Shown here one piece after another: positions 3,974 through 19,288 of a DNA stretch of 36,394 nucleotides (positions are counted from its first letter, which is position 1; each line of letters starts with the position of its first letter). The position numbers were made by a program, and so were the translations under genes. The stretch spans positions 1 to 36,394 of the forward strand of contig CALGTK010000432.1 of assembly GCA_937904325.1 (NCBI GenBank), given 5' to 3'. The notes under the pieces are model-generated. The model made no database searches. It saw nothing but the letters and a program-made list of their open reading frames with translations, and was not told the origin of the DNA. Source of the DNA: an uncultured Planctomyces sp. (GTDB lineage: Bacteria > Planctomycetota > Planctomycetia > Planctomycetales > Planctomycetaceae).

Positions 3974-6592
3974 ATGCGAGAGGGTCTACCAGATACACGA
4001 CACCTCTTCCCGCGCTGGAGTCTTAGCGGGCTACTCGCCACCGCCTTGCTGATCTGCCTCGCGCAGAACTCAAAGGCAGACTTCGAGCAGCGGGTCATCA
4101 CGGACGATGATGGCGAGCATAGCTACGCCATTTTCGTTCCGGAAAGCTATTCCGCCGACAAAAAATGGCCGGTCGTCCTGTTCCTGCACGGCGCCGGTGA
4201 GCGAGGCCGCGACGGCAAACGGCAATTAACCATTGGTCTGGCCCCCGCGATCAAAAAGCGACAATCTTCATTTCCATTTATCGCCGTCTTCCCTCAGTGT
4301 GAAGACACCAGTGCGAGATATCTTGCGGGCTGGCTAGCCGACAGTCCTGACGCAAAGCGAGCCCTCAAGATCCTCAACCAGGTTGAAAACGACTACTCGA
4401 TCGACACATCTCGCCGAATTTTGACCGGGTGGTCAATGGGTGGATACGGAACGTGGAGCGTCGCAGCGGCAACACCTTCCAAGTGGCAGGCAATACTTCC
4501 GTTGGCCGGTGGTGGCGCCGACCTCGCAGGTAAGTTAGTGGATGTTCCTGTCTGGGCGTTTCACGGATCTGAAGATGCCGCAATTCGACCGGCGCAGTCT
4601 CGACGAACAATCGCTGCACTACGGTCTGCAGGAGCCAAACCTCGATACACAGAAATAGCGGGCGGGAAGCACGATATCACGCACATCGTGTACGACACTG
4701 ACGCCGTCATTCAGTGGATGCTCGATCCGAAAGGAGATCATCCCAGAGCGTTGGCGCTCCGAGTGCCGATCGACGATGCAAGTGTAGACAATTCGCCATT
4801 CATTCCGGCGCTCGACCTCGAAGGAGCAGCAACCGTTCGACTCGGCAACACAATGCTGGACGCACTGGCAATGTCGATCCCGAATCTGCTTCCGAAAGAC
4901 TTGCTCCGCGGTTCGTTGGCTGACATCTATGACAGAACCGTTGTGGACGGTCGGCAATTCCAAATCACGTTTGGAAGCATCTCTTATGCCGCCGACCTCT
5001 GGCGGGTCCGACTGAATGCCTACCAGAAAGATCGACTCAATGTGCAGATTGGTGTGCAGAATGCAACCCTCAGAATCGGCGGCACATCAGTCACAGGAAG
5101 AGATCATTCGGCGTCGACAGGCCCCATCAATATCGTCATTGGTCACCGGGAACCTGTCTGGCTGAGCTTCGACGTTACGCCTTACATCAAAGACAGGCAG
5201 CTTCGACTTCGGCAGGTTAGTACGCGCTTCGACATTCCATTCAACAACTGGTACGTCACCGCGCCGGCCGGAGTGAGCGTACGAGGATTTGGCATGACCC
5301 GCGACAAAGTCTCACGCGGGCTTGTCGAAGGTCTTTATGGAAATAAAGCTCGCATCGAACAGGAAGTTCGCGGGCTTGTGCCGTCCCTGGTGACCGCGAT
5401 GGAAGAAAAACTTCAACTGGACCAGGCAAACTCAATAATTGGCAGCTTCTGGCCGTTGCCCGTTTACAGCCCTCGCGTTCATGTCTGGCCGCAGGAAGTC
5501 TCCACTGACGACGCCGGTATCTCGGTTGTGCTGGGCCTTACGGCAGCCGCAGTGACTCCAGAATCTGCTCCGGATAAACCATCCCGGCAGGTGGTGACAG
5601 ACGTAACCGCCCAGGACATCAACAAAACCACTGATCTACAGGTCTCCGTCGCACCAAACATGCTGGAAGGACTCACTAAACTACTTGTCGCCGCGGACGT
5701 CGCCAAAATTAACGTACTCGACATTCCGGATGCCGCCTTTGCAGGCCTCGGCGATCGAGCCGCACTCACACGAGCCATTCCGGAATTAGCCAGTCTGGGT
5801 CCGGACGTCGAACTTTCGGCCGTGCTTCATCTAGCCGACTCAATTGCGATCGGCGAAAACAAAGAAGCAGACGGTATGCAGTTTCAAGCTCCCGGGTTGC
5901 TGTTCAAGGTCTCGACCAGGTCCAGCAAAGCAACATCGTCATGGGAACCCTTTGCCAATCTTCGATATTCGGTTAACCAGGGGACAGTTACTTCGCTGGA
6001 GCGAGTGTCCAACGAAGCCCGAGCACTACAGCTTACGTGGGACAATCAGACTCAGATTGCTGTCGACGCAGATTTCGCCGACGGCTACTCACCGACTGAC
6101 AGTACGATAAATGAGCAAGTGCTGGCGGACCTGTTTCGAGAGTCCTGGACACAATGGACGCAGCAAGGCCCGGCTTCTCAGACGATCATCCCAGACTTCG
6201 ATCTGGGGCTGACTCGACTCCGCCTGTCAGACGTCTCGTGGAAGAACCCTGCACTATCCGTCACTTTTTCCGCGCCAGGGGTTAAACTTACGAACAGCAG
6301 TGACACGAATCTTGTCTACGAGACTAAAGGCCCGTTCAGCGGCTGGGGTGGTCCCTTTACGCTGAAACCGGGCAAGTCGCACGAGTACCCCATCGCATAC
6401 CCACTGATTTACCGTCGGCGAATCGATGGCCAGTATGTGCAGTACGCACTCGCGCCGGGGTCGCACTCAGAATACCGAGTCCCGCAGGCCGGCGGCAATC
6501 CGCGGTTGTTCAAGGCTCGCGAGGACCTGGACGTTGGAAACGTCGAAGCGACTACGGCAGAAACTGACGATCCCACGGACGAACAACAGTAA
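3974..6592 (+). CDS. Secreted esterase/peptidase-like alpha/beta hydrolase with large unknown C-terminal half
   Basis: This 872-residue protein begins with an N-terminal hydrophobic segment (about 17-30) that should act as a signal peptide. Residues 40-255 are an alpha/beta hydrolase of the predicted-peptidase/PHB-depolymerase-like class: oxyanion region LFLHGAGERGRDGKRQ, nucleophile S154 in TGWSMGGYGTW, probable acid D201 (HGSEDAAI) and probable base H233 (GGKHDITH). The remaining roughly 600 residues are rich in beta-strand-like segments and do not match a family I recognise. They contain no obvious catalytic motif or transmembrane helix. AAGGAG lies about 9 bases before the ATG. The following apbE-nqrM gene starts 6 bases after the stop, so co-transcription is likely. 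The substrate is unknown. Confidence 0.8.
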   Translation: MREGLPDTRHLFPRWSLSGLLATALLICLAQNSKADFEQRVITDDDGEHSYAIFVPESYSADKKWPVVLFLHGAGERGRDGKRQLTIGLAPAIKKRQSSFPFIAVFPQCEDTSARYLAGWLADSPDAKRALKILNQVENDYSIDTSRRILTGWSMGGYGTWSVAAATPSKWQAILPLAGGGADLAGKLVDVPVWAFHGSEDAAIRPAQSRRTIAALRSAGAKPRYTEIAGGKHDITHIVYDTDAVIQWMLDPKGDHPRALALRVPIDDASVDNSPFIPALDLEGAATVRLGNTMLDALAMSIPNLLPKDLLRGSLADIYDRTVVDGRQFQITFGSISYAADLWRVRLNAYQKDRLNVQIGVQNATLRIGGTSVTGRDHSASTGPINIVIGHREPVWLSFDVTPYIKDRQLRLRQVSTRFDIPFNNWYVTAPAGVSVRGFGMTRDKVSRGLVEGLYGNKARIEQEVRGLVPSLVTAMEEKLQLDQANSIIGSFWPLPVYSPRVHVWPQEVSTDDAGISVVLGLTAAAVTPESAPDKPSRQVVTDVTAQDINKTTDLQVSVAPNMLEGLTKLLVAADVAKINVLDIPDAAFAGLGDRAALTRAIPELASLGPDVELSAVLHLADSIAIGENKEADGMQFQAPGLLFKVSTRSSKATSSWEPFANLRYSVNQGTVTSLERVSNEARALQLTWDNQTQIAVDADFADGYSPTDSTINEQVLADLFRESWTQWTQQGPASQTIIPDFDLGLTRLRLSDVSWKNPALSVTFSAPGVKLTNSSDTNLVYETKGPFSGWGGPFTLKPGKSHEYPIAYPLIYRRRIDGQYVQYALAPGSHSEYRVPQAGGNPRLFKAREDLDVGNVEATTAETDDPTDEQQ

Positions 6593-6598
6593 TTCAAC

Positions 6599-7942
6599 AT
6601 GCCGAAATTAGCTGTTCCGAAAATCTCGACGTTCTACAGTAGCGTGTTGGTCTGCGGCCTTCTTGCTGTTTGCCTGTTTGCGCTGACTGGTTCTGGGGCA
6701 CCTCTGACGAACGTGATTACTGGCCAGACGATGGGAACCTCGTACCGAATCGTTCTGGCAGATTCGCAAGATGCCACAACACTCGCCGCAATGCAGGCAG
6801 ACATCGACCTGGCTTTGAACCAGCTCGAAGACCAGATGTCTACCTGGCGGCCAGATTCAGAACTGTCCCGCTTCAACGTTTCCACTTCGACCGACTGGTT
6901 CTCAGTTTCACGAGATACAGTGTTCGTCGTTTCCGAAGCAAAGAGAATCTGGCAACTCAGCGACGGAGCGTTTGATCCAACTGTTGCACCACTCATCAAA
7001 CTGTGGCACTTTGCCGAAGAACCAGGCGAGCAATCTCTTCCCAGCGAATCCGATATCAAGCAGGCACTTGCCGCCATCGGGTTCGATCAAATCAACGTGC
7101 GACTTGATCCTCCATCGCTCATGAAGAAACGCCCCGAAATTCAGTTGAATCTTTCAGCTATTGCCAAAGGATACGCAGTCGATGTCGTTTCGAAACTGCT
7201 GACAGAACGACTCGCGGAAGACCATCTACCAACCGCTCATCTGGTGGAAATTGGCGGTGAAATGCGAGGACGGGGACGAAAACCTGATGGTCGTTCATGG
7301 ACGGCTGGCATCGAGACTCCTGACGCCTTGCCGCGCCAGATTCATACGGCACTGCGACTGCACGACCGGGCACTCGCCACTTCAGGCGATTACCGAAACT
7401 ACTTCGAGGTCGATGGGCAGCGATACTCGCACACTATCGATCCAGCAACCGGTCGGCCAGTCACACACAACCTGACGTCCGTCTCCGTCCTTGCTGAAGA
7501 TTGCCTGACCGCCGACGCGCTGGCGACGGCGATCGAAGTTCTTGGGCCCGAGCAGGGAATGAAGCTCGCGGAACAGGAAGGCGTTTCAATTTATCAGATA
7601 ATTCGAAACGGCTCCAACTTCGATGTTCAGGCTTCGTCGTCTTTCCCCTTACTGGTGACCGCGGATTCGCCAACTGAATCCGCTAAGCAGGCTAATTCGG
7701 TCCTCGCCACAGTTCTGGCGGCTGTCGGAATATTTGCTCTGGCCATCGCCGGCATGGCAGTCGGAGTCGTTTTCAGCAACCGATCGATCAAAGGCAGTTG
7801 TGGCGGACTTGCCAGTATGCCGGGGCACGATGGAAAATCTATATGTGAATTGTGTACCGTTCCCGCCGAAGAATGCCGCGACGAAGAAATGCGGAAAATC
7901 CGCCGGCAAGCAGAATGCTCTGATACGGAATTCGAAGTTTAA
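6599..7942 (+). CDS. ApbE FAD:protein FMN transferase fused to an NqrM-like domain
   Basis: The 447-residue protein starts with a signal or anchor helix (about 13-30). Residues 38-350 are ApbE: TGQTMGTSYRI, STWRPDSELSRFN, LSAIAKGYAVDVV (185-197), VEIGGEMRGRG, SGDYRNYFEVDGQRYSHTIDPATGRP (262-287) and DCLTADALATA (301-311, metal-binding region). ApbE covalently attaches FMN from FAD to Thr/Ser of FMN-binding domains outside the cytoplasm. Residues 368-391 form a transmembrane helix followed by NRSIKGSCGGL and Cys 401, 416, 419 and 426. This is the layout of NqrM (formerly DUF539), the small Na+-NQR maturation factor. The two are normally separate genes. The downstream two-FMN-domain protein is a plausible substrate; no nqr genes are in the window. 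Confidence 0.9.
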   Translation: MPKLAVPKISTFYSSVLVCGLLAVCLFALTGSGAPLTNVITGQTMGTSYRIVLADSQDATTLAAMQADIDLALNQLEDQMSTWRPDSELSRFNVSTSTDWFSVSRDTVFVVSEAKRIWQLSDGAFDPTVAPLIKLWHFAEEPGEQSLPSESDIKQALAAIGFDQINVRLDPPSLMKKRPEIQLNLSAIAKGYAVDVVSKLLTERLAEDHLPTAHLVEIGGEMRGRGRKPDGRSWTAGIETPDALPRQIHTALRLHDRALATSGDYRNYFEVDGQRYSHTIDPATGRPVTHNLTSVSVLAEDCLTADALATAIEVLGPEQGMKLAEQEGVSIYQIIRNGSNFDVQASSSFPLLVTADSPTESAKQANSVLATVLAAVGIFALAIAGMAVGVVFSNRSIKGSCGGLASMPGHDGKSICELCTVPAEECRDEEMRKIRRQAECSDTEFEV

Positions 7943-7969
7943 CTTGCGTCTTTGCCTGAAGGTCTTCCC

Positions 7970-10234
7970 ATGCGATGTTTGATTTCGGTGTGTCTATGCC
8001 TTGGCGTTCTCTCCAGTTCGTTCGCTGCCGACGCAGTGCTCGTTGAGGCCGAAAGTTTTTCTTCCCATGGTGGATGGAAGCTGGATACACAGTTTATAGA
8101 CACAATGGGATCACCTTACCTGCTGGCCCACGGACTCGGTCGACCTGTTAAAGATGCCATAACAACTGCCGAAGTGCCGACCACCGGCAATTATCGAGTC
8201 TTCGTTCGAACCATCGACTGGGTAGGCAGGTGGAATGTCAAAGGACAGCCAGGACGTTTCGAAATTTCAATCAACGGGAAGCGTCTGAAGCAGACCTTCG
8301 GCACAAAGTCAGCCACTTGGACCTGGCATGACGGTGGTTCGGTAACAATTGACAAAAAGCAGATCTCGATCGGTCTCCATGACCTCACCGGGTTCGACGG
8401 GCGTTGCGATGCGATTCTTCTGACAAAGGACAATAAAACTCCGCCAAACGATCCGACCACCCTCGCAGACTGGCGACGTGAACAGCTCGGTCTGGAGAAA
8501 GCTCCCACGGCACGCGGTGACTACGATCTCGTCGTTATCGGTGGCGGATATTCAGGGATGGGCGCAGCTCTGTCTGCGGCCCGAATGGGCTGCAAGGTCG
8601 CACTGGTACAGAATCGCCCTATCCTTGGCGGCAATGGCTCCAGCGAAGTTAGAGTCTGGGCGAAGGGCAACATCCGCCGTGGTAAATACCCACGTATTGG
8701 CGAAATCATCGAAGAATTTTGCGACCACGCCGAAAAGTCACCTGGCACCTACGAAGAGTTCGGCGACGCAAAAAAAGAAGCGATCATTCGCGGCGAAAAG
8801 AACATTGATTTATTCCTCAACCACCACGCATACAAAGTTGATACCGAAGACAACCGAGTGGTTGCCGTCCACGCCTTCGACACGAGAACCAGTGAGCATT
8901 CCCGATTCGCAGGCAAACTCTTTTCAGACTGCACGGGACACGGAACAATTGGTTATCTCGCTCAGGCCGATTGGGAAATGGAACCCAAAGGCCGCATGGG
9001 CATGAGCAATATGTGGGCCTGGGCCAACGACGAAAAGCCACGCTCCTACCCGCACACTCCATGGGCTCTAGATCTGGACATGAAGGATTTCCCATACCCA
9101 AGAGCGTTCCATGGCCAGTGGTTCTGGGAAAGCGGATTCGACAAAGACCCGCTGGGCGGGGCCGAGTCGATTCGCGACTGGAACCTGCGAGCCGTCTATG
9201 GTGCATTCAACGCGATGAAGAATCGCGACGGTGCTGCGGAGCACAAAAATGCCTTCCTGACATGGATTGCCTACATTGGCGGCCCGCGTGAATCCCGGCG
9301 ACTGATGGGTGACGTCGTGCTGAATCAGGACGACGTAGTCGCCAAGAAAGATTTCCCCGATGGATGCGTGCCAAGTACCTGGTCGATTGATCTTCATTAC
9401 CCGAAACAGCAATACGCTGGCAAATTCAAGGACAACCCATTTATCTCCTACGCCGTCCACGATCGCCGTGTCGACCGAGCATACGGTTACCCGGTCCCCT
9501 ATCGGTGCTTCTACTCGCGCAACATCGACAACCTGTTCATGGCGGGTCGTTGCATCAGCGTGACGCATCAGGCCCTTGGCACCGTCCGCGTCATGAAAAC
9601 CTGCGGAATGATGGGCGAAGTTGTCGGCAAGGCGGCTTCCATCTGTACTCTTCAAAGTTGTACCCCGCGAGATGTCTACGAACGATATCTTGACGAACTC
9701 AAGGAACTACTCATTCTGCCAGGCAAGGCTCGTCGCGAAACTGTTTCTTCTGAAATCACTGTCCCCAGCGATGCATTGCCTCTCGCAGGCAAATTCGGCC
9801 CGCCCACGGGACTGCCTGTCAGCAACTTAAAAGGCCTGGTTATTGACGATCTCGCCGCCAGCAAGGAAGGCAAGTGGACCAACGGAACTGGCCTGAAGGG
9901 TTACATTGAAAACGGCTATCTCTACGCCAGCGCCAATAGCAATTCAAAGATCACTTACAGTTTCAATGCTCCCGCCACCGGCAGTTTTGACATTCGAATC
10001 AACGCTCTTGCACACGAAAACCGCGCAAGTAACGCGAAGGTCATGGTCTCAACAAAATCGGACAGCAGTACGCACACAGTCAACCTGAGAGCGAAAGCTC
10101 CACTGGAAAACAACTTTGTTAGAGTCGGGAAGTTCGACCTCAAAAAAGACGAACCAGTCTCAGTGATCATCTCCACTGAGGGAGCCAATGGAACGCTACA
10201 CGCCGACGCCGTTCAAGTCCTAGCTGTAGAATAG
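7970..10234 (+). CDS. Secreted FAD-dependent oxidoreductase with flanking carbohydrate-binding-like domains
   Basis: I start at the ATG at 7970, preceded by GAAGG at 7957-7961, rather than an in-frame TTG at 7952. The protein has 754 residues. MRCLISVCLCLGVLSSSFA is a clean signal peptide. Residues 25-155 look like a beta-sandwich of the CBM/NPCBM type (VEAESFSSHGGW, then GNYRVFVRTIDW). The FAD_oxidored-type core begins with YDLVVIGGGYSGMGAA (dinucleotide motif 191-196) and continues with PILGGNGSSEVRVW and a late FMAGRCISVTHQALGTVRVMKT region. The last 120 or so residues resemble the golvesin/Xly-type beta domain (ending GTLHADAVQVLAVE). The family is common in planctomycetes and its substrates, possibly sugars or polysaccharides, are mostly unknown. 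Its position between apbE and a membrane flavoprotein suggests a redox partner there. Confidence 0.88.
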   Translation: MRCLISVCLCLGVLSSSFAADAVLVEAESFSSHGGWKLDTQFIDTMGSPYLLAHGLGRPVKDAITTAEVPTTGNYRVFVRTIDWVGRWNVKGQPGRFEISINGKRLKQTFGTKSATWTWHDGGSVTIDKKQISIGLHDLTGFDGRCDAILLTKDNKTPPNDPTTLADWRREQLGLEKAPTARGDYDLVVIGGGYSGMGAALSAARMGCKVALVQNRPILGGNGSSEVRVWAKGNIRRGKYPRIGEIIEEFCDHAEKSPGTYEEFGDAKKEAIIRGEKNIDLFLNHHAYKVDTEDNRVVAVHAFDTRTSEHSRFAGKLFSDCTGHGTIGYLAQADWEMEPKGRMGMSNMWAWANDEKPRSYPHTPWALDLDMKDFPYPRAFHGQWFWESGFDKDPLGGAESIRDWNLRAVYGAFNAMKNRDGAAEHKNAFLTWIAYIGGPRESRRLMGDVVLNQDDVVAKKDFPDGCVPSTWSIDLHYPKQQYAGKFKDNPFISYAVHDRRVDRAYGYPVPYRCFYSRNIDNLFMAGRCISVTHQALGTVRVMKTCGMMGEVVGKAASICTLQSCTPRDVYERYLDELKELLILPGKARRETVSSEITVPSDALPLAGKFGPPTGLPVSNLKGLVIDDLAASKEGKWTNGTGLKGYIENGYLYASANSNSKITYSFNAPATGSFDIRINALAHENRASNAKVMVSTKSDSSTHTVNLRAKAPLENNFVRVGKFDLKKDEPVSVIISTEGANGTLHADAVQVLAVE

Positions 10235-10324: not shown

Positions 10325-10363
10325 GGAGGAACAATAGTGTCATCACGCGGTGAAACGGCATGA
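10325..10363 (+). other. Possible 8-codon leader overlapping the next start (ATGA)
   Basis: GGAGGA at 10325-10330 is too far (29 bases) from the ATG at 10360 to serve it directly. It is well spaced from a GTG at 10337 that opens an 8-codon frame ending in TGA at 10361-10363. That stop overlaps the ATG of the flavoprotein gene in the classic ATGA arrangement. Translational coupling through this mini-frame would explain the remote SD. This is inference from spacing only. Confidence 0.3.
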
Positions 10364-12597
10364 CCTCTGATACCTCGCTGATGCTGCTACCTGTCGTTCG
10401 TGATAAATCTTTGACGCCTCGACAGCGACGTCCGATCCTGGCCATTGTCCTGCATACAGCCAGGTTGGCGATACTGGTCGGCATACTTCTCCTGCTGAGA
10501 AAACAGCACCAAAGCTATCTCGCTGCTGAAGCGTCGCGTGACCAGAAACCGGTCACCGTAAAGGTTTTGCAGGAGTTCTTTCCCAATGCTGTCGAAGGCG
10601 GACTGTTTGATCCCGACCGGCGAACTCAACAGGTTCTGGACGCTGCTAACTTGACACTTGGCTTTGTGGTTCAAACCTCTCCACAGTCGGACGGAATCGT
10701 CGGATTCTCTGGCCCGACCAATATCCTGATCGCCTTCGATAATGGCGAACGCATCATCGGTCTGAAAATTCTGTGGAGTCGCGACACCGTCGAGCACGTA
10801 GCTCTTATCGAGCGGGACGATAGATTTCTGAAGTCATGGCAGAGTGTTCTTTGGACCGAGGCCGCCAACCGTACTTCCGTGGACGGCGTGTCTGGAGCAA
10901 CTCTCACAAGTCTTGCAATCGCTGAATCAATCGGCAAACGGCTCGGTGGCAACGTCCCCTCACTGCGTTTCCCTGAAGACATTCAACTACATGAAATTAC
11001 CGCGAAATTTCCGACGGCCACCAGACTTGCCCCCGAACCGCGTCGCCCTGCCCTGAATCGAATTCTGAATGCTGGCGACTTGTTGCTCGGCTATGTATTT
11101 CGGACATCGCCCTCCGCTGACAATCTTGTCGGCTACCAGGGGGCTACCGACACGCTGGTCATGCTTGATGCTGACGAGAACGTCCTCGGCATCCAGCTAC
11201 GCAACAGTTTTGATAATGAACCCTATGTAGGTTACGTCAAAGAGGAAGAGTACTTTCTAAATCTCTTCAACGATCGCACGTTGGCCGAAGTCGCAACCCT
11301 TAACCTCTTTGAAGCACGTGTTGAAGGAGTGTCCGGTGCGACGATGACCAGCATGAATATCGCTGACGGTCTGGTCATCGCTGCAAAACACGCTGCAACC
11401 GTAGTCGAACAGACGTCCCCTGCTTCGTCAGCCAGAATGCCGAACAATCGACAAATCGCCACAGTGATTGTCGTCATGGGCGGATTGATCATAGGCCTGA
11501 GTCGTCTTCGTAAATTTCGAATCGTTCGACTCGGACTGCTGACCAGCGTCATCCTGGTCCTCGGATTACTCAACGGCGACATGCTTTCTCAGGCAACACT
11601 GATCGGTTGGACTCAAAATGACGTCCCGTGGGCCATTGCAACGGGACTGGTGACGGTTTCAATCGCGGCGTTGTTAATTCCAGTTTTCTCGAAAACTCAA
11701 ATCTACTGCCACCAATTGTGCCCTCACGGCGCGGTCCAGCAACTGGCAATGCGGCGTCTCCCCTGGCAACCGCGGATTCCACGTTGGCTAAGCCGCAACC
11801 TGCTACTCCTGCCATTCGGCCTGCTTATCTGGTGCGTTATCGTCAGTATGCTGCATCTGCCGTTCAGTCTGGTCGACCTCGAGCCCTTTGACGCCTGGGT
11901 TTATCAAGCCGCGGGGCCGGTGACTATAACCATCGCCATAGTCGGCCTGGCAACTTCCTTGTTCATCCCGATGGCGTATTGCCGGTATGGATGTCCCACT
12001 GGTGCATTGCTTCAATTCATTCGCTTCAACTCAAAAAGCGACATCTGGAATCGCACGGATTGGCTGGCAACGCTTCTACTCCTGCTAACTGTGGCCCTGC
12101 GATTCACCTTTCCTACGGGCTCACTTCCCGAGTTTTCCCCTGTTGAAATCGACGGGCAACTCAAATCACTTGTGTCCGAATATAAGAGTACTCTGCAATG
12201 GCTGACGGCCTTTTCCGTTGCTCTCTTTATTGGTTCAATCATCGCCGTCCCGTGGCTCGTTGCTCGCATCCCAACCGACTATTTTATAGCGACCGGCAGC
12301 GGACAGAACGAGTTTCGGAAACAGAGCCCAACCGCTTCGTTGCAGTGGCGAATCCTCAAGAATGTGATCGGTGTTGTACTTCTGGTCGCTGGTGCAGCCA
12401 TGCTTATTCTGCCAGGCCAGGGACTACTAACGATACTTCTTGGCGTCATGCTGGTAGATTTCCCTGGAAAGCGAAGATTGGAACTCCTGATCATCCGACG
12501 GCCATCAATTCGCCGGGTCGTGGGATGGATCCGCCGTCGAACAGGCCGGGATGAACTCCAGATTCCGGGTTCCAGCAGTGACTCCTCTTCAGAATGA
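10360..12597 (+). CDS. NosR/PceC-like membrane flavoprotein: two FMN-binding domains, CxxxCP iron-sulfur membrane domain, PGPGW-like tail
   Basis: The 745-residue protein has a first helix at about 26-46, then two external FMN-binding repeats. Repeat 1 ends in VDGVSGATLTS (T181 the likely FMN-linked residue) and repeat 2 in VEGVSGATMTS (T328). A polytopic domain follows (helices near 365-380, 388-405, 422-441, 480-500, 518-538, 567-580 and 612-632) with two CxxxCP motifs, C450-C454 and C541-C545, as in the polyferredoxin part of NosR, PceC and NapH. Residues 663-730 (LPGQGLLTILLGVMLVDFPGKRR) resemble the small PGPGW membrane family. Established for NosR-like proteins: electron transfer between a membrane quinol or cytoplasmic donor and external flavin. 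Here it is probably flavinylated by the ApbE encoded nearby. Confidence 0.87.
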   Translation: MTSDTSLMLLPVVRDKSLTPRQRRPILAIVLHTARLAILVGILLLLRKQHQSYLAAEASRDQKPVTVKVLQEFFPNAVEGGLFDPDRRTQQVLDAANLTLGFVVQTSPQSDGIVGFSGPTNILIAFDNGERIIGLKILWSRDTVEHVALIERDDRFLKSWQSVLWTEAANRTSVDGVSGATLTSLAIAESIGKRLGGNVPSLRFPEDIQLHEITAKFPTATRLAPEPRRPALNRILNAGDLLLGYVFRTSPSADNLVGYQGATDTLVMLDADENVLGIQLRNSFDNEPYVGYVKEEEYFLNLFNDRTLAEVATLNLFEARVEGVSGATMTSMNIADGLVIAAKHAATVVEQTSPASSARMPNNRQIATVIVVMGGLIIGLSRLRKFRIVRLGLLTSVILVLGLLNGDMLSQATLIGWTQNDVPWAIATGLVTVSIAALLIPVFSKTQIYCHQLCPHGAVQQLAMRRLPWQPRIPRWLSRNLLLLPFGLLIWCVIVSMLHLPFSLVDLEPFDAWVYQAAGPVTITIAIVGLATSLFIPMAYCRYGCPTGALLQFIRFNSKSDIWNRTDWLATLLLLLTVALRFTFPTGSLPEFSPVEIDGQLKSLVSEYKSTLQWLTAFSVALFIGSIIAVPWLVARIPTDYFIATGSGQNEFRKQSPTASLQWRILKNVIGVVLLVAGAAMLILPGQGLLTILLGVMLVDFPGKRRLELLIIRRPSIRRVVGWIRRRTGRDELQIPGSSSDSSSE

Positions 12598-12610
12598 CTC
12601 GAGACCGAGC

Positions 12611-13936
12611 ATGAATCTTTTCGCAAAGGCGGAAGCGAACAATCTCGACAAGGCAAAGCCGCTGGCCGCTCGCATGCGTCCTCGCAACCTTGACGAGTTT
12701 GTCGGTCAACAACATTTTCTCGGCGAAGGTAAACTGCTACGTCGAATCCTGGCAGCGGACCGTCTTTCTTCGGTGATCTTCTATGGACCACCCGGTTGCG
12801 GAAAGACGTCACTTGCAGAAGTCATCGCCGGCCAGACAAAGTCAGTTTTTGCTCGACTGAATGCGGCGTCTGCTGGCGTCAAGGAAGTCCGAGCGTTACT
12901 CGATCAGGCACGCGATCGCCTGACAACAGGTGGAAAAGGAACGTTGCTGTTCGTTGATGAGTTGCACCATTTCAACCGAACTCAGCAAGACGTGCTGCTA
13001 CCGGATGTCGAATCTGGGGTTGTGCGACTGATCGGAGCGACGACTGAAAACCCCTTCTTCTCACTGGTATCCCCGCTGGTTAGTCGAAGCCAGGTATTCG
13101 AGTTCAAGCCAGTCGAACCCGACGACGTTCGTAAAGTGCTTGAGCGAGCGCTGACGGACTCAGATAGAGGGCTCGGCTTTCTGAATGTTTCTGCGACTGA
13201 CGAGTCACTTAATTTTCTTGCCGAGGTTTCCGATGGCGATATCCGCCGAGCGTTGAGTGCCTTGGAAATCAGTGCCCTGTCTGTATCGGGATCGGAAATT
13301 GACCTGGCCCTTGCGCAGGAATCGATCCAGAAAAAGGCGATTCAATACGACGACGACGCGCACTACGACTCAGCCAGCGCTCTAATCAAGAGTATGCGGG
13401 GAAGCGATGCAGACGCAGCCGTTTACTGGCTGGCTCGGATGCTCGAAGCCGGCGAAGATCCACGGTTTCTCGCTCGTCGAATCGTCATTGCCGCCTCAGA
13501 AGACGTTGGAAATGCCGATCCTCAAGCACTTGTTATCGCCAACGCCGCCGCTCAGGCAACATTGATGGTGGGAATGCCCGAATGTCGGATCATGCTATCT
13601 CAGGCAGCGACTTATGTGGCACTGGCCCCGAAATCAAACGCAGCATATGCAGCCATCAACGAGGCGATGCAGGATGTCCGTGAACGGCGAGTGCTGCCAA
13701 TCCCAACTCACCTGAAAGATTCCCACTACAAAGGAGCCGAACGACTGGGGCATGGTGAAGGGTACGAGTACGCGCACAGTGGAGACGACGGCTGGGTCGA
13801 TCAGGATTACCTGGGTGTCGACAGAAGTTACTACCGCCCTGTCAATCGCGGATTCGAGGCCGAACTTCAGCAACGCATGGCGACGATCAATGAGCGGAAG
13901 TCGCAACCGTCAAACTCTGACAACGAGTCCACATAG
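12611..13936 (+). CDS. rarA: Replication-associated recombination protein A (AAA+ ATPase)
   Basis: The protein is 441 residues from the ATG at 12611. An in-frame ATG 60 bases upstream would overlap the previous gene and adds a tail not typical of the family. It begins MNLFAKAEANNLDKAKPLAARMRPRNLDEFVGQ, as RarA/MgsA proteins do. Walker A is GPPGCGKTS (59-67), Walker B is LLFVDELHHFN (112-122) and sensor 1 is GATTENP (142-148). The C-terminal part contains the tetramerisation and MgsA region (DAAVYWLARMLEAGEDPRFLARRIVIAASEDVGNADP, then LPIPTHLKDSHY). RarA acts at stalled replication forks with SSB and the replisome. It starts 13 bases after the flavoprotein stop, a likely co-transcribed but functionally unrelated neighbour. 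Confidence 0.95.
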   Translation: MNLFAKAEANNLDKAKPLAARMRPRNLDEFVGQQHFLGEGKLLRRILAADRLSSVIFYGPPGCGKTSLAEVIAGQTKSVFARLNAASAGVKEVRALLDQARDRLTTGGKGTLLFVDELHHFNRTQQDVLLPDVESGVVRLIGATTENPFFSLVSPLVSRSQVFEFKPVEPDDVRKVLERALTDSDRGLGFLNVSATDESLNFLAEVSDGDIRRALSALEISALSVSGSEIDLALAQESIQKKAIQYDDDAHYDSASALIKSMRGSDADAAVYWLARMLEAGEDPRFLARRIVIAASEDVGNADPQALVIANAAAQATLMVGMPECRIMLSQAATYVALAPKSNAAYAAINEAMQDVRERRVLPIPTHLKDSHYKGAERLGHGEGYEYAHSGDDGWVDQDYLGVDRSYYRPVNRGFEAELQQRMATINERKSQPSNSDNEST

Positions 13937-17409: not shown

Positions 17410-18031
17410 ACAAACGCCCCGCGGTCGAACCATGAAACAAACTGGTAAATGCCATGATGTACGATGCTCGTTGAATGATGCAACTAAGACATGCCTCGCA
17501 ACCGTGTCCCGAGGAATCCTCCAATCATCAAATCGACGCTCAGTTCACGTGACACAACACGCAACGTCGACCAATGATTTTCTATGAAACGGTTCAGGCC
17601 GCTATTCCTGACGTCGCCAGCATCGCCTGCCAAATCCAAGTCGACAACCTTCTGCATGGGTACCTGTTGTGGATTGCTGATGCCCGTCGCTCGTAACTTG
17701 TCTACCCTGAACAGGCCGTGGCTTTACTCGGGGTGTCGACGGTAATCCTGATCCGGCAGGGAACATTTGACGTCGAATTTTTGTCGAGCATTGCCGCCGA
17801 AATCAGCGTAAACCAGTATCAGGCCATGACAGCGGCAACGAAGACGACCACGAACAGCTCGTTAAGAATTCGAATACTCAAAATTGACACCTTCCTGGGA
17901 ATGTCTCATTCCACGGTAAATTCCGCCCTGGCAGTAAACCTAAACCCTTGCCAATAGTCGCGGCAGTTCTGACCGGTCGCTAGCCTTTCCAACTCGACTG
18001 TCCGTTGAAAACTATCTTTGGAGACTTTCGC
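17410..18031. other. Intergenic region with one interrupted reading frame
   Basis: About 620 bases without a convincing intact gene. In one plus-strand frame an ATG at 17574 gives 40 protein-like codons (FYETVQAAIPDVASIACQIQ, then LLHGYLLWIADARRS), a TAA at 17694-17696, and then 87 more open codons to 17957 (YPEQAVALLGVSTV and onward). This could be the remains of a gene broken by one nonsense mutation, or chance. I recognise no family. Confidence 0.3.
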
Positions 18032-19288
18032 ATGCGTCACCGAATTCAGACACAAGGTCTTGCCATAATCGTCGTCGCAGTTCTTGCCGGCGTTTCTCTA
18101 CTCGTTGAACGATCCAGCACAGCTCAACCGACCACAACGCGACTTCCAGGCGCGCGAGCCGAGGTCGACGCAGCTCAATTCCCCAGTCTTCAGGCAGCCA
18201 TGGATGCGATTCCGGAAGATGGCGGAGTTGTCCGGCTTCCGGCTGGAACTTTCGAGATCACAGAGCCAATCATCGTTACTCGTGGCGATGTGTTGCTGAC
18301 AGGTGCCGGGACGGCGACGCACATTGTTAACCGAAACGAAGACGGCAAACCAGCAATCATTCTTCAACACTCCGACGGGGGCGATGTCAAAAACGACGAC
18401 CGGCTATGGCGGATCATGCTCAGTAATCTGCGAGTGACCGGCAACGAAAAAAGCGGACACGGAATTCTGGCCGTTCAGATTCAGGAGGTCTTCCTGCAGG
18501 GAGTCACCGTCAGCGAGCACGGCGGCGACGGAATCCAACTCGACCATTGCTACGAAGACCCCAGAGTCAGCGACTCCCTCATTACCTATAACAAAGGTGT
18601 TGGCCTGAACCTGTTGGGCTGTCACGACATCGTCGTCTCGTCCAACCAGTTCGAAGAAAACCAGGATGCTCTGCACTGCCTCGACGGGTTCAATCTATGC
18701 ATGACAGGAAACTGTATCGACGACCATCTCGGCGAAGGAGTCGTCATTGAAAACACGTACGGTTCCGTACTCTCCGGAAACATGATCGAAGAATGCCACG
18801 GCACTGCGGTCGTCCTTGACAGAGACTGCTACGGCATCACCATCAGCGCCAATGTCATCGCCCACAACGGAGCCGGTATCGACCTTCGAGATGCTCACGG
18901 TTGCGCAGTGTCCGCAAACACGCTGACCATTCTCAAAACAAACGCTCTACGCATCGGCCCGAACAGCGGTCGCATCACAGTGACGGGGAACAACATTTCC
19001 AACAGCTACGTTGGTGAAGACACCGTCAAACGCCGAGTCGACGATCTTGCCGCAGCCGGTATCACGCTCGACGGAACTTCCGAGCTGGCCATCGTCGGCA
19101 ACTCCTTCGCCAGTGTCAGTCCTCACGCCGTCGAACTGACCGACAACCCAAGCAAACGAATCGTCTTCTCATCGAACGTCCTGACCGACGTCTCCAGCGA
19201 ACACAGCCACCTGAAGGACTCAGTGATCACCAACCAATTGATTTCAACACCAACGGAACAGGATAACTCGACCAAAACCCGGCAATAG
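18032..19288 (+). CDS. Exported right-handed parallel beta-helix protein
   Basis: I start at the ATG at 18032, which has GGAG about 8 bases upstream, rather than a TTG 27 bases earlier. The 418-residue protein has an N-terminal signal or anchor (LAIIVVAVLAGVSLL). Residues after 45 show the pectate-lyase-like opening (FPSLQAAMDAIPEDGGVVRLPAGTFEITEPIIV), then many rungs of the form 'I..N....' (VSSNQFEEN, MTGNCIDDH, LSGNMIEEC, ISANVIAHN, VSANTLTIL, VTGNNISNS, IVGNSFASV, FSSNVLTDV). These are PbH1/NosD-type repeats. Such proteins bind or cleave polysaccharides. I see no metal-binding cluster that would prove lyase activity. Confidence 0.8.
   Translation: MRHRIQTQGLAIIVVAVLAGVSLLVERSSTAQPTTTRLPGARAEVDAAQFPSLQAAMDAIPEDGGVVRLPAGTFEITEPIIVTRGDVLLTGAGTATHIVNRNEDGKPAIILQHSDGGDVKNDDRLWRIMLSNLRVTGNEKSGHGILAVQIQEVFLQGVTVSEHGGDGIQLDHCYEDPRVSDSLITYNKGVGLNLLGCHDIVVSSNQFEENQDALHCLDGFNLCMTGNCIDDHLGEGVVIENTYGSVLSGNMIEECHGTAVVLDRDCYGITISANVIAHNGAGIDLRDAHGCAVSANTLTILKTNALRIGPNSGRITVTGNNISNSYVGEDTVKRRVDDLAAAGITLDGTSELAIVGNSFASVSPHAVELTDNPSKRIVFSSNVLTDVSSEHSHLKDSVITNQLISTPTEQDNSTKTRQ

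Follow-up and report, generated by a model that had tools for sequence, protein, structure and literature searches.

A candidate membrane flavin relay with two outer FMN domains and a secreted FAD oxidoreductase partner in an uncultured Planctomyces

The contig CALGTK010000432.1 (assembly GCA_937904325.1), analyzed here over positions 1 to 36,394 (a stretch called the window below), belongs to an uncultured Planctomyces sp. whose genome comprises 7,972,106 bases in 488 contigs. Its positions 10360-12597 (forward strand) form a single open reading frame (ORF) for a protein of 745 amino acids, in which Pfam detects FMN_bind and Fer4_5, each in two stretches, as well as PGPGW, and which we call the relay protein. 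The nearest named relatives carry the labels Planctomycetota, Planctomycetaceae, Planctomyces, and, in one case, Rhodopirellula sp. On the same strand, the relay gene is preceded by the gene of a secreted PF12831-type FAD oxidoreductase (7952-10234) and by that of a flavin transferase, ApbE, with an attached NqrM domain (6599-7942), and it is followed by rarA/mgsA (12551-13936).

The presence of two tandem FMN-binding domains, proposed in a preliminary description of this DNA, was confirmed at both the sequence and the fold level. Scored separately in the genome search, domain 1 (residues 65-198, positions 10552-10953) and domain 2 (residues 205-350, positions 10972-11409, adjoining the membrane core) reach 37.3 and 24.2 bits, respectively, and both pass the cut-off of 22. 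The two repeats align with a score of 177, compared with a mean of 28 and a maximum of 48 in 500 shuffles. In the AlphaFold2 model, built on an alignment of 76 sequences (mean pLDDT 87.7), five strands followed by helices are predicted twice, within residues 67-194 and 222-346, so the suggested comparison of a predicted structure with RnfG and NqrC yields two FMN folds rather than one. The top six Foldseek rows are RnfG and NqrC chains with a probability of 0.99-1.00, their E-values being merely 0.0056-0.073 and a value of 0.001 being reached by no row. VIA-align placed RnfG 7zc6_G on residues 209-348 (Z 11.0, rmsd 3.4, 130 aligned), and RnfG 8rb8_G and NqrC 9u5g_C on residues 66-197 (Z 10.2, rmsd 3.3, 126 aligned) and 65-198 (Z 9.1, rmsd 3.0, 126 aligned). 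On the sequence level, the protein has no match to solved structures at an E-value of 0.1.

Both flavinylation motifs stand where they had been placed, VDGVSGATLT with Thr181 in the first repeat (DGVSGAT, residues 175-181, positions 10882-10902) and VEGVSGATMT with Thr328 in the second (EGVSGAT, residues 322-328, positions 11323-11343). Their conservation was followed in an alignment of 81 rows, consisting of the window protein and the 80 best of 426 loci found in genome contigs; because these loci were ranked on their similarity to the full-length query, tandem forms are favoured, and single-domain members were read apart. Position 175 of repeat 1 is filled by Asp in 65 rows, Glu in nine, His in three, and Tyr and Gln in two each, and position 181 by Thr in 79 rows and Ser in two. 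In repeat 2, position 322 is Glu in 71 rows, Asp in nine, and Gln in one, Gly-326 and Ala-327 are found in 80 rows each, and Thr328 is present in all 81, so that the loss of Thr looked for among homologues is observed in none. The sole site of eight single-FMN relatives (L151-L157 and L022; L157 is the same gene as L021) is of the Glu type, IEGVSGAT or VEGVSGAT, in six and of the Asp type in two (FDAVSGAS in L156, IDGVSGAT in L022); the more distant single-domain proteins L163 and L164 have Asp-type sites too. In a review (PMC12052999), the Asp of the motif is called strictly conserved, yet its replacement by Ala had only minor effects on the flavinylation of a fumarate reductase. Because Glu is usual at repeat 2, Thr328 is invariant, Glu-type sites serve as sole sites, and the Asp-to-Ala effect is minor, Glu is, as judged from the sequences, what the core-proximal site of this family normally carries, and no mark of decay. 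The earlier suggestion that it may weaken or abolish modification is not supported, and a Glu that opens the motif should not be taken as the sign of an inactive flavin site. As a separate observation, repeat 2 of L005/L034, from the same genus, has the motif VEGGFGATMT, the only one of the 81 rows without V-[ST] before G-A-T, and the second site of this species may be impaired.

The two FMN domains lie between transmembrane helix 1 (residues 26-48, positions 10435-10503) and helix 2. Hydropathy and charge predict that the N-terminus and the two CX3CP motifs are inside, whereas the FMN domains, judged solely from the charge count, are outside. The membrane core (residues 360-585, positions 11437-12114) scores 38.3 bits against PF12801 (Fer4_5; cut-off 22) and contains several transmembrane helices by hydropathy and in the model. 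The CX3CP motifs, both in predicted cytoplasmic loops, occupy residues 450-455 (11707-11724), with both Cys in 81 of 81 rows, and residues 541-546 (11980-11997), with both Cys in 80 of 81 rows and a gap in one. The Fer4_5 match agrees with the NosR-like core proposed initially, which we describe as NosR/PceC-like (NapH/PceC-type) with two CX3CP motifs. The NCBIfam model of NosR is named 'transcriptional regulator NosR'; a role as transcription regulator was rejected, since there is no DNA-binding domain among the Pfam matches.

The upstream partner (7952-10234) begins with an apparent signal peptide, recognized by eye, continues with a carbohydrate-binding-like module and the PF12831 FAD oxidoreductase domain, and ends with a golvesin-type module. 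Its model, which has a pLDDT of 78.5 and several weak stretches, including 476-516, matches flavoenzymes over about residues 184-588; the fold rows comprise oxidases and dehydrogenases along with two reductases, flavocytochrome c3 and urocanate reductase. When its two ends are included, it matches the C-terminal part of the xanthan lyase 6f2p (Z 19.4, 258 residues aligned within 25-760) with an rmsd of 26.9, hence not as one rigid body, and CBM35 modules are found among the Foldseek rows. The top Foldseek rows, insecticidal Cry proteins, were set aside as long gapped alignments with a TM-score of 0.16 or less, thought to reflect common beta-sandwich modules only. Since the enzyme carries two carbohydrate-binding-like modules, our guess for its substrate is a glycan or the product of one.

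Genes of the partner's type (FAD1 type, >35% identity) were found in 44 of the 80 loci. They are missing from 31 loci that have enough upstream sequence, and the other five loci lie at contig ends. All but two of the 44 genes share the strand of the relay gene and end no more than 293 bases before it (42 cases), the exceptions being L081 (789 bases) and L096 (1367 bases, other strand). It also directly precedes six of the eight single-FMN relatives. Six of the 31 loci without it have instead a larger, divergently transcribed PF12831-type relative, recognized by PF12831 in L050 and by BLAST in the other five. This second PF12831-type protein of 1129-1184 amino acids (L050:6507-9893, minus strand; L038, L053, L058, L061, L080) comes from contigs four of which are labelled Verrucomicrobia.

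The core and the enzyme also occur together at the genome level, in raw genome counts uncorrected for kinship. Under strict cut-offs chosen afterwards (core E <1e-30, enzyme E <1e-190), 36 of 392 genomes of the phylum contain both, one the core only (G351, 79% complete), two the enzyme only (G200, G393), and 353 neither; with the cut-offs as run (1e-10 and 1e-100), the respective numbers are 38, 14, 14, and 326. Among 59 closer genomes, 22 have both, two the core only (G016, G024), one the enzyme only (G045, where a weak core match with E 1.4e-7 was left uncounted), and 34 neither. Twenty-five of the 36 strict pairs lie within 5 kb, a contig end separates the two genes in G034, and ten pairs are not close, including G271, where the relay gene starts 433 bases from a contig end and another break is possible; because these ten pairs are not close, the pairing goes beyond linkage. 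The family thus gains an apparent dedicated enzyme partner, and one that can be tested. No conserved third gene that would name the substrate emerged around the loci: among the ORF clusters listed, those in a fixed place are the relay, the FAD enzymes, overlapping frames, and rarA (in five tail-fused loci), and other recurrent clusters are at scattered positions.

The transferase gene at 6599-7942 matches ApbE with 291.7 bits (PF02424, cut-off 25.6) and, in its C-terminal part, NqrM with 29.5 bits (PF04400, cut-off 22). The relay is probably matured by this adjacent fusion protein. The genome also has NqrC and two other ApbE genes, and since the NqrM match is its only one, the ApbE-NqrM protein may in addition serve the Na+-NQR of the organism. 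ApbE is clustered with the relay gene or fused to it in 17 of the 80 loci. The same ApbE-NqrM fusion was seen in L034, and in L068, L069 (same contig as L160), L158, and L159 ApbE is fused to the C-terminal end of the relay, which puts the flavin transferase and its protein substrate on one chain.

Of the 37 core matches (E <1e-30) in the 392 genomes, 15 are ORFs of single-FMN size (435-493 amino acids) and 17 of tandem size (562-672); the others are the window's own ORF with its tail (747), three ORFs of 898-915, each of which was read and contains two FMN motifs plus ApbE, and one cut by a contig end. Tandem and single forms thus number 21 and 15, assigned mostly by length and in some cases by reading. 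The earlier statement that such proteins usually have one FMN domain holds for the described NapH-like form and not for this family, where two are common. Named strains with the tandem form and the FAD enzyme include Blastopirellula marina DSM 3645 (L060) and Rhodopirellula solitaria CA85 (L055).

The phylogenetic tree of the FMN domains combined both repeats of 27 tandem proteins with nine single domains and two outgroup rows; it was built by a quick method with SH-aLRT support only, and seven of its 62 inner branches are starred. Repeat 2 of all 27 proteins forms one side of a branch (SH-aLRT 90). Of the single domains, the seven from L151-L157 group with it (93), but those of L163 and L164 stay apart. 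For repeat 1 there is no such branch: it takes three changes, as outgroup rows and distant single-domain rows are interspersed with its own. In the tree of the core, single forms occur in several places, mostly near the base and with weak support. The roots of the trees are unsure, as the outgroup rows were too distant and did not stay together. Subject to this, the trees fit one old duplication in which repeat 1 would be the added outer domain; alternatively, single forms may have lost repeat 1. One of the distant single-FMN proteins, the NapH-like L163:5751-7577, has a nitroreductase-like C-terminal part (residues about 436-599, NCBIfam matches below cut-off). With natural one-FMN and two-FMN proteins beside the same enzyme, the effect of the second flavin on the electron chain is directly testable.

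Taken together, the presence of two FMN folds, the conservation of Thr at both sites (with Ser as an occasional substitute in repeat 1) and of the Cys pairs, the topology as predicted, and the close association with the FAD oxidoreductase make it likely, in our view, that the relay protein is a NapH/PceC-type membrane electron carrier with two ApbE-flavinylated outer FMN domains, linked to the secreted enzyme encoded upstream. ApbE would attach FMN to both Thr181 and Thr328 in domains expected on the outer face of the cytoplasmic membrane, and electrons would hop between the FAD enzyme, FMN1, FMN2, and the membrane core, which in turn would tie the chain to the quinone pool and/or to centres at the two CX3CP motifs. 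Since repeat 2 resembles the single domain of most one-FMN relatives, FMN2 would be the membrane-side station and FMN1 the added outer one. Two flavins in series, and hence the longer wire envisaged at the outset, are plausible.

Several observations weigh against this assignment. No relative of the FAD enzymes is found by BLAST (1e-6) on the fetched stretch in 29 of the 80 loci, and five of the 80 are near a contig end; the core occurs without the enzyme in two of the 59 closer genomes and, at the cut-offs as run, in 14 of 52 core genomes, 13 of which have weaker core matches. The model of the enzyme is weak in the stretches mentioned, such as 476-516. Finally, ApbE stands near the relay in only 17 of the 80 loci, and the two further ApbE genes of the genome leave that of the window unproven as the modifier.

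The direction of flow gives two variants of the proposed electron carrier. That the secreted FAD enzyme oxidizes a substrate, perhaps a glycan, and passes electrons inward through the FMNs to the quinone pool has, in our estimate, close to an even chance: the carbohydrate-binding-like modules at both ends of the enzyme speak for it, and NapH-like systems are said, in the accessible part of PMC8238504, to serve reductases and oxidases alike, but the fold rows of the enzyme include reductases, and the CX3CP motifs, with their predicted cytoplasmic orientation, would be compatible with a cytosolic donor too. Outward flow, in which a quinol or cytosolic donor reduces the FMNs and these feed a reductive FAD enzyme, is a serious possibility to which we would give somewhat under even odds. 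It accords with NosR and PceC, thought to feed their reductases (PMC5928378, as excerpted), and with the existence of flavinylated fumarate and urocanate reductases (PMC8238504, same part), but no known terminal reductase is among the 20 window proteins scanned.

An arrangement of the two FMN domains in parallel, for redundancy or electron storage, appears rather doubtful. It has precedents in SaFMN3, whose three highly similar FMN domains share one redox potential (PMC10339131, in the text available), and in models of multi-FMN proteins, often beads on a string (PMC11334425, likewise in part). Here, however, the repeats have diverged, and the single branch formed by repeat 2 of the 27 proteins in the quick tree with its few starred branches hints at different roles. 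That only repeat 1 carries FMN and repeat 2 is a degenerate structural domain is very improbable given its conserved Thr328 and the Glu-type sole sites of six single-FMN relatives, together with its conserved Gly-326 and Ala-327 and the minor Asp-to-Ala effect noted above, despite its lower Pfam score, the Asp-type sites of L022, L156, L163, and L164, and deviant second motifs in L005/L034 and in another row (IEGVSSATKTS).

Returning to the electron carrier with two flavins, a broader and tentative extension, which we hold to be rather unlikely as a whole, is that Planctomycetota and Verrucomicrobiota share an undescribed extracytosolic flavin-only chain coupling outside glycan chemistry directly to the respiratory chain, with the Glu-type FMN site on the membrane side. 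If true, the order would be FAD enzyme with carbohydrate-binding modules, FMN, FMN, and NapH-like core.

The remaining part of the relay protein, the membrane tail (residues 605-745, positions 12172-12594), scores 23.3 bits against Pfam PGPGW (PF09656), exactly at the cut-off of 23.3, and 25.6 bits against TIGR02611, below its cut-off of 70.6. It is 35-53% identical to unfused PGPGW-type genes, and unfused relatives of the core stop near residue 580. In a survey of the 59 genomes, the window's own included, the match spans the tail in that genome and in four of five further congeneric genomes; the remaining one, 59% complete, is without a match. Eight genomes have core and tail at two separate places (G008, G009, G011, G012, G016, G022, G027, G031), and G039, whose tail match covers only 660-739 (E 5.7e-8), is a possible ninth. 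The fusion is also seen in L128, which has another genus code, and L035 and L036 match residues 10 to 743-744; L128 and L036 are possibly one organism. On this sequence evidence the tail is a lineage-specific gene fusion that occurs in the genus of the window and in one or more further lineages; in other genera it is a separate gene, in keeping with the preliminary description of it as usually a free-standing small protein. No redox motif was seen in the tail, which is probably a passenger or an anchor outside the redox path. Another fusion of the same small protein, with the PGPGW-type tail behind EF-hands in one ORF (21.6 bits, just below cut-off), is present at L134:1444-2574 (minus strand).

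The next gene, the AAA+ gene rarA/mgsA (Pfam and relatives), overlaps the relay gene as annotated at 12551-13936; matches begin at its codon 21 in four of five relatives, so the overlap is not needed. Tail and rarA as an old gene pair were considered and rejected, as a rarA relative is found in only three of 28 tail places, all fused (L125, L126, L128; flanks of about 1.5 kb or less). The neighbourhood of rarA therefore goes with the fusion, and the gene is not thought to be part of the redox system. Directly upstream of the ApbE gene lies a large esterase-like protein (3974-6592), which three of the 80 loci, closely related ones, have in that position too. A promoter and terminator scan gave counts no different from shuffles.

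Comparison with known systems relates the relay to several families. Among the closest are the NapH-like flavinylation systems of Meheust et al. 2021 (PMC8238504), which, in the accessible text, comprise 1926 gene clusters for NapH-like proteins with an N-terminal FMN domain and share with the locus the Fer4_5 core and the nearby ApbE; the relay differs from them in its two FMN domains and PF12831 partner. With PceC/RdhC it shares the outside FMN domain, demonstrated as such for PceC, the membrane module, the two CX3CP motifs, and the lack of C-terminal Fe-S clusters (PMC5928378, in part); PceC, however, combines one FMN domain with a reductive dehalogenase, whereas two FMN domains and an FAD oxidoreductase are found here. 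No rdhA is among the 20 window proteins scanned, nor is nosZ, the rest of the genome not having been searched for either. NosR likewise has an FMN domain and a membrane core with cysteine motifs, and the NCBIfam NosR model matches the relay with an E-value of 1.2e-15, but the score of 56.9 bits is far below the cut-off of 1000 (NF046105), and membership was rejected. Pfam shows no C-terminal 4Fe-4S ferredoxin domain in the relay up to E 1; what follows residue 585 is the PGPGW tail. For the NosD match at 18005-19288, the generic Beta_helix model gives the higher score.

Multi-FMN proteins as such are described, 2081 of them in 1530 genomes (PMC8238504, same text). The relay resembles SaFMN3, CbFMN4, and other multi-flavinylated proteins in having more than one ApbE-type FMN domain, predicted extracytosolic in the relay; the two that have been characterised are soluble with similar domains (PMC10339131, as far as excerpted), whereas here a diverged pair sits on a membrane core. 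PGPGW/TIGR02611 proteins match the tail at the Pfam cut-off and are separate genes elsewhere, in contrast to its fusion here and its score below the TIGR02611 cut-off. Among the literature matches listed, which were known flavinylation papers and unrelated ones only, none concerned the tandem NapH-like family or its PF12831 partner, and the main text of PMC8238504, in its accessible part, contains no PF12831, Planctomycet-, or Verrucomicro-, while its supplementary tables may list the family. As far as these sources extend, multi-FMN proteins and NapH-like FMN proteins are thus known, and the tandem NapH-like family with its PF12831 partner is apparently new.
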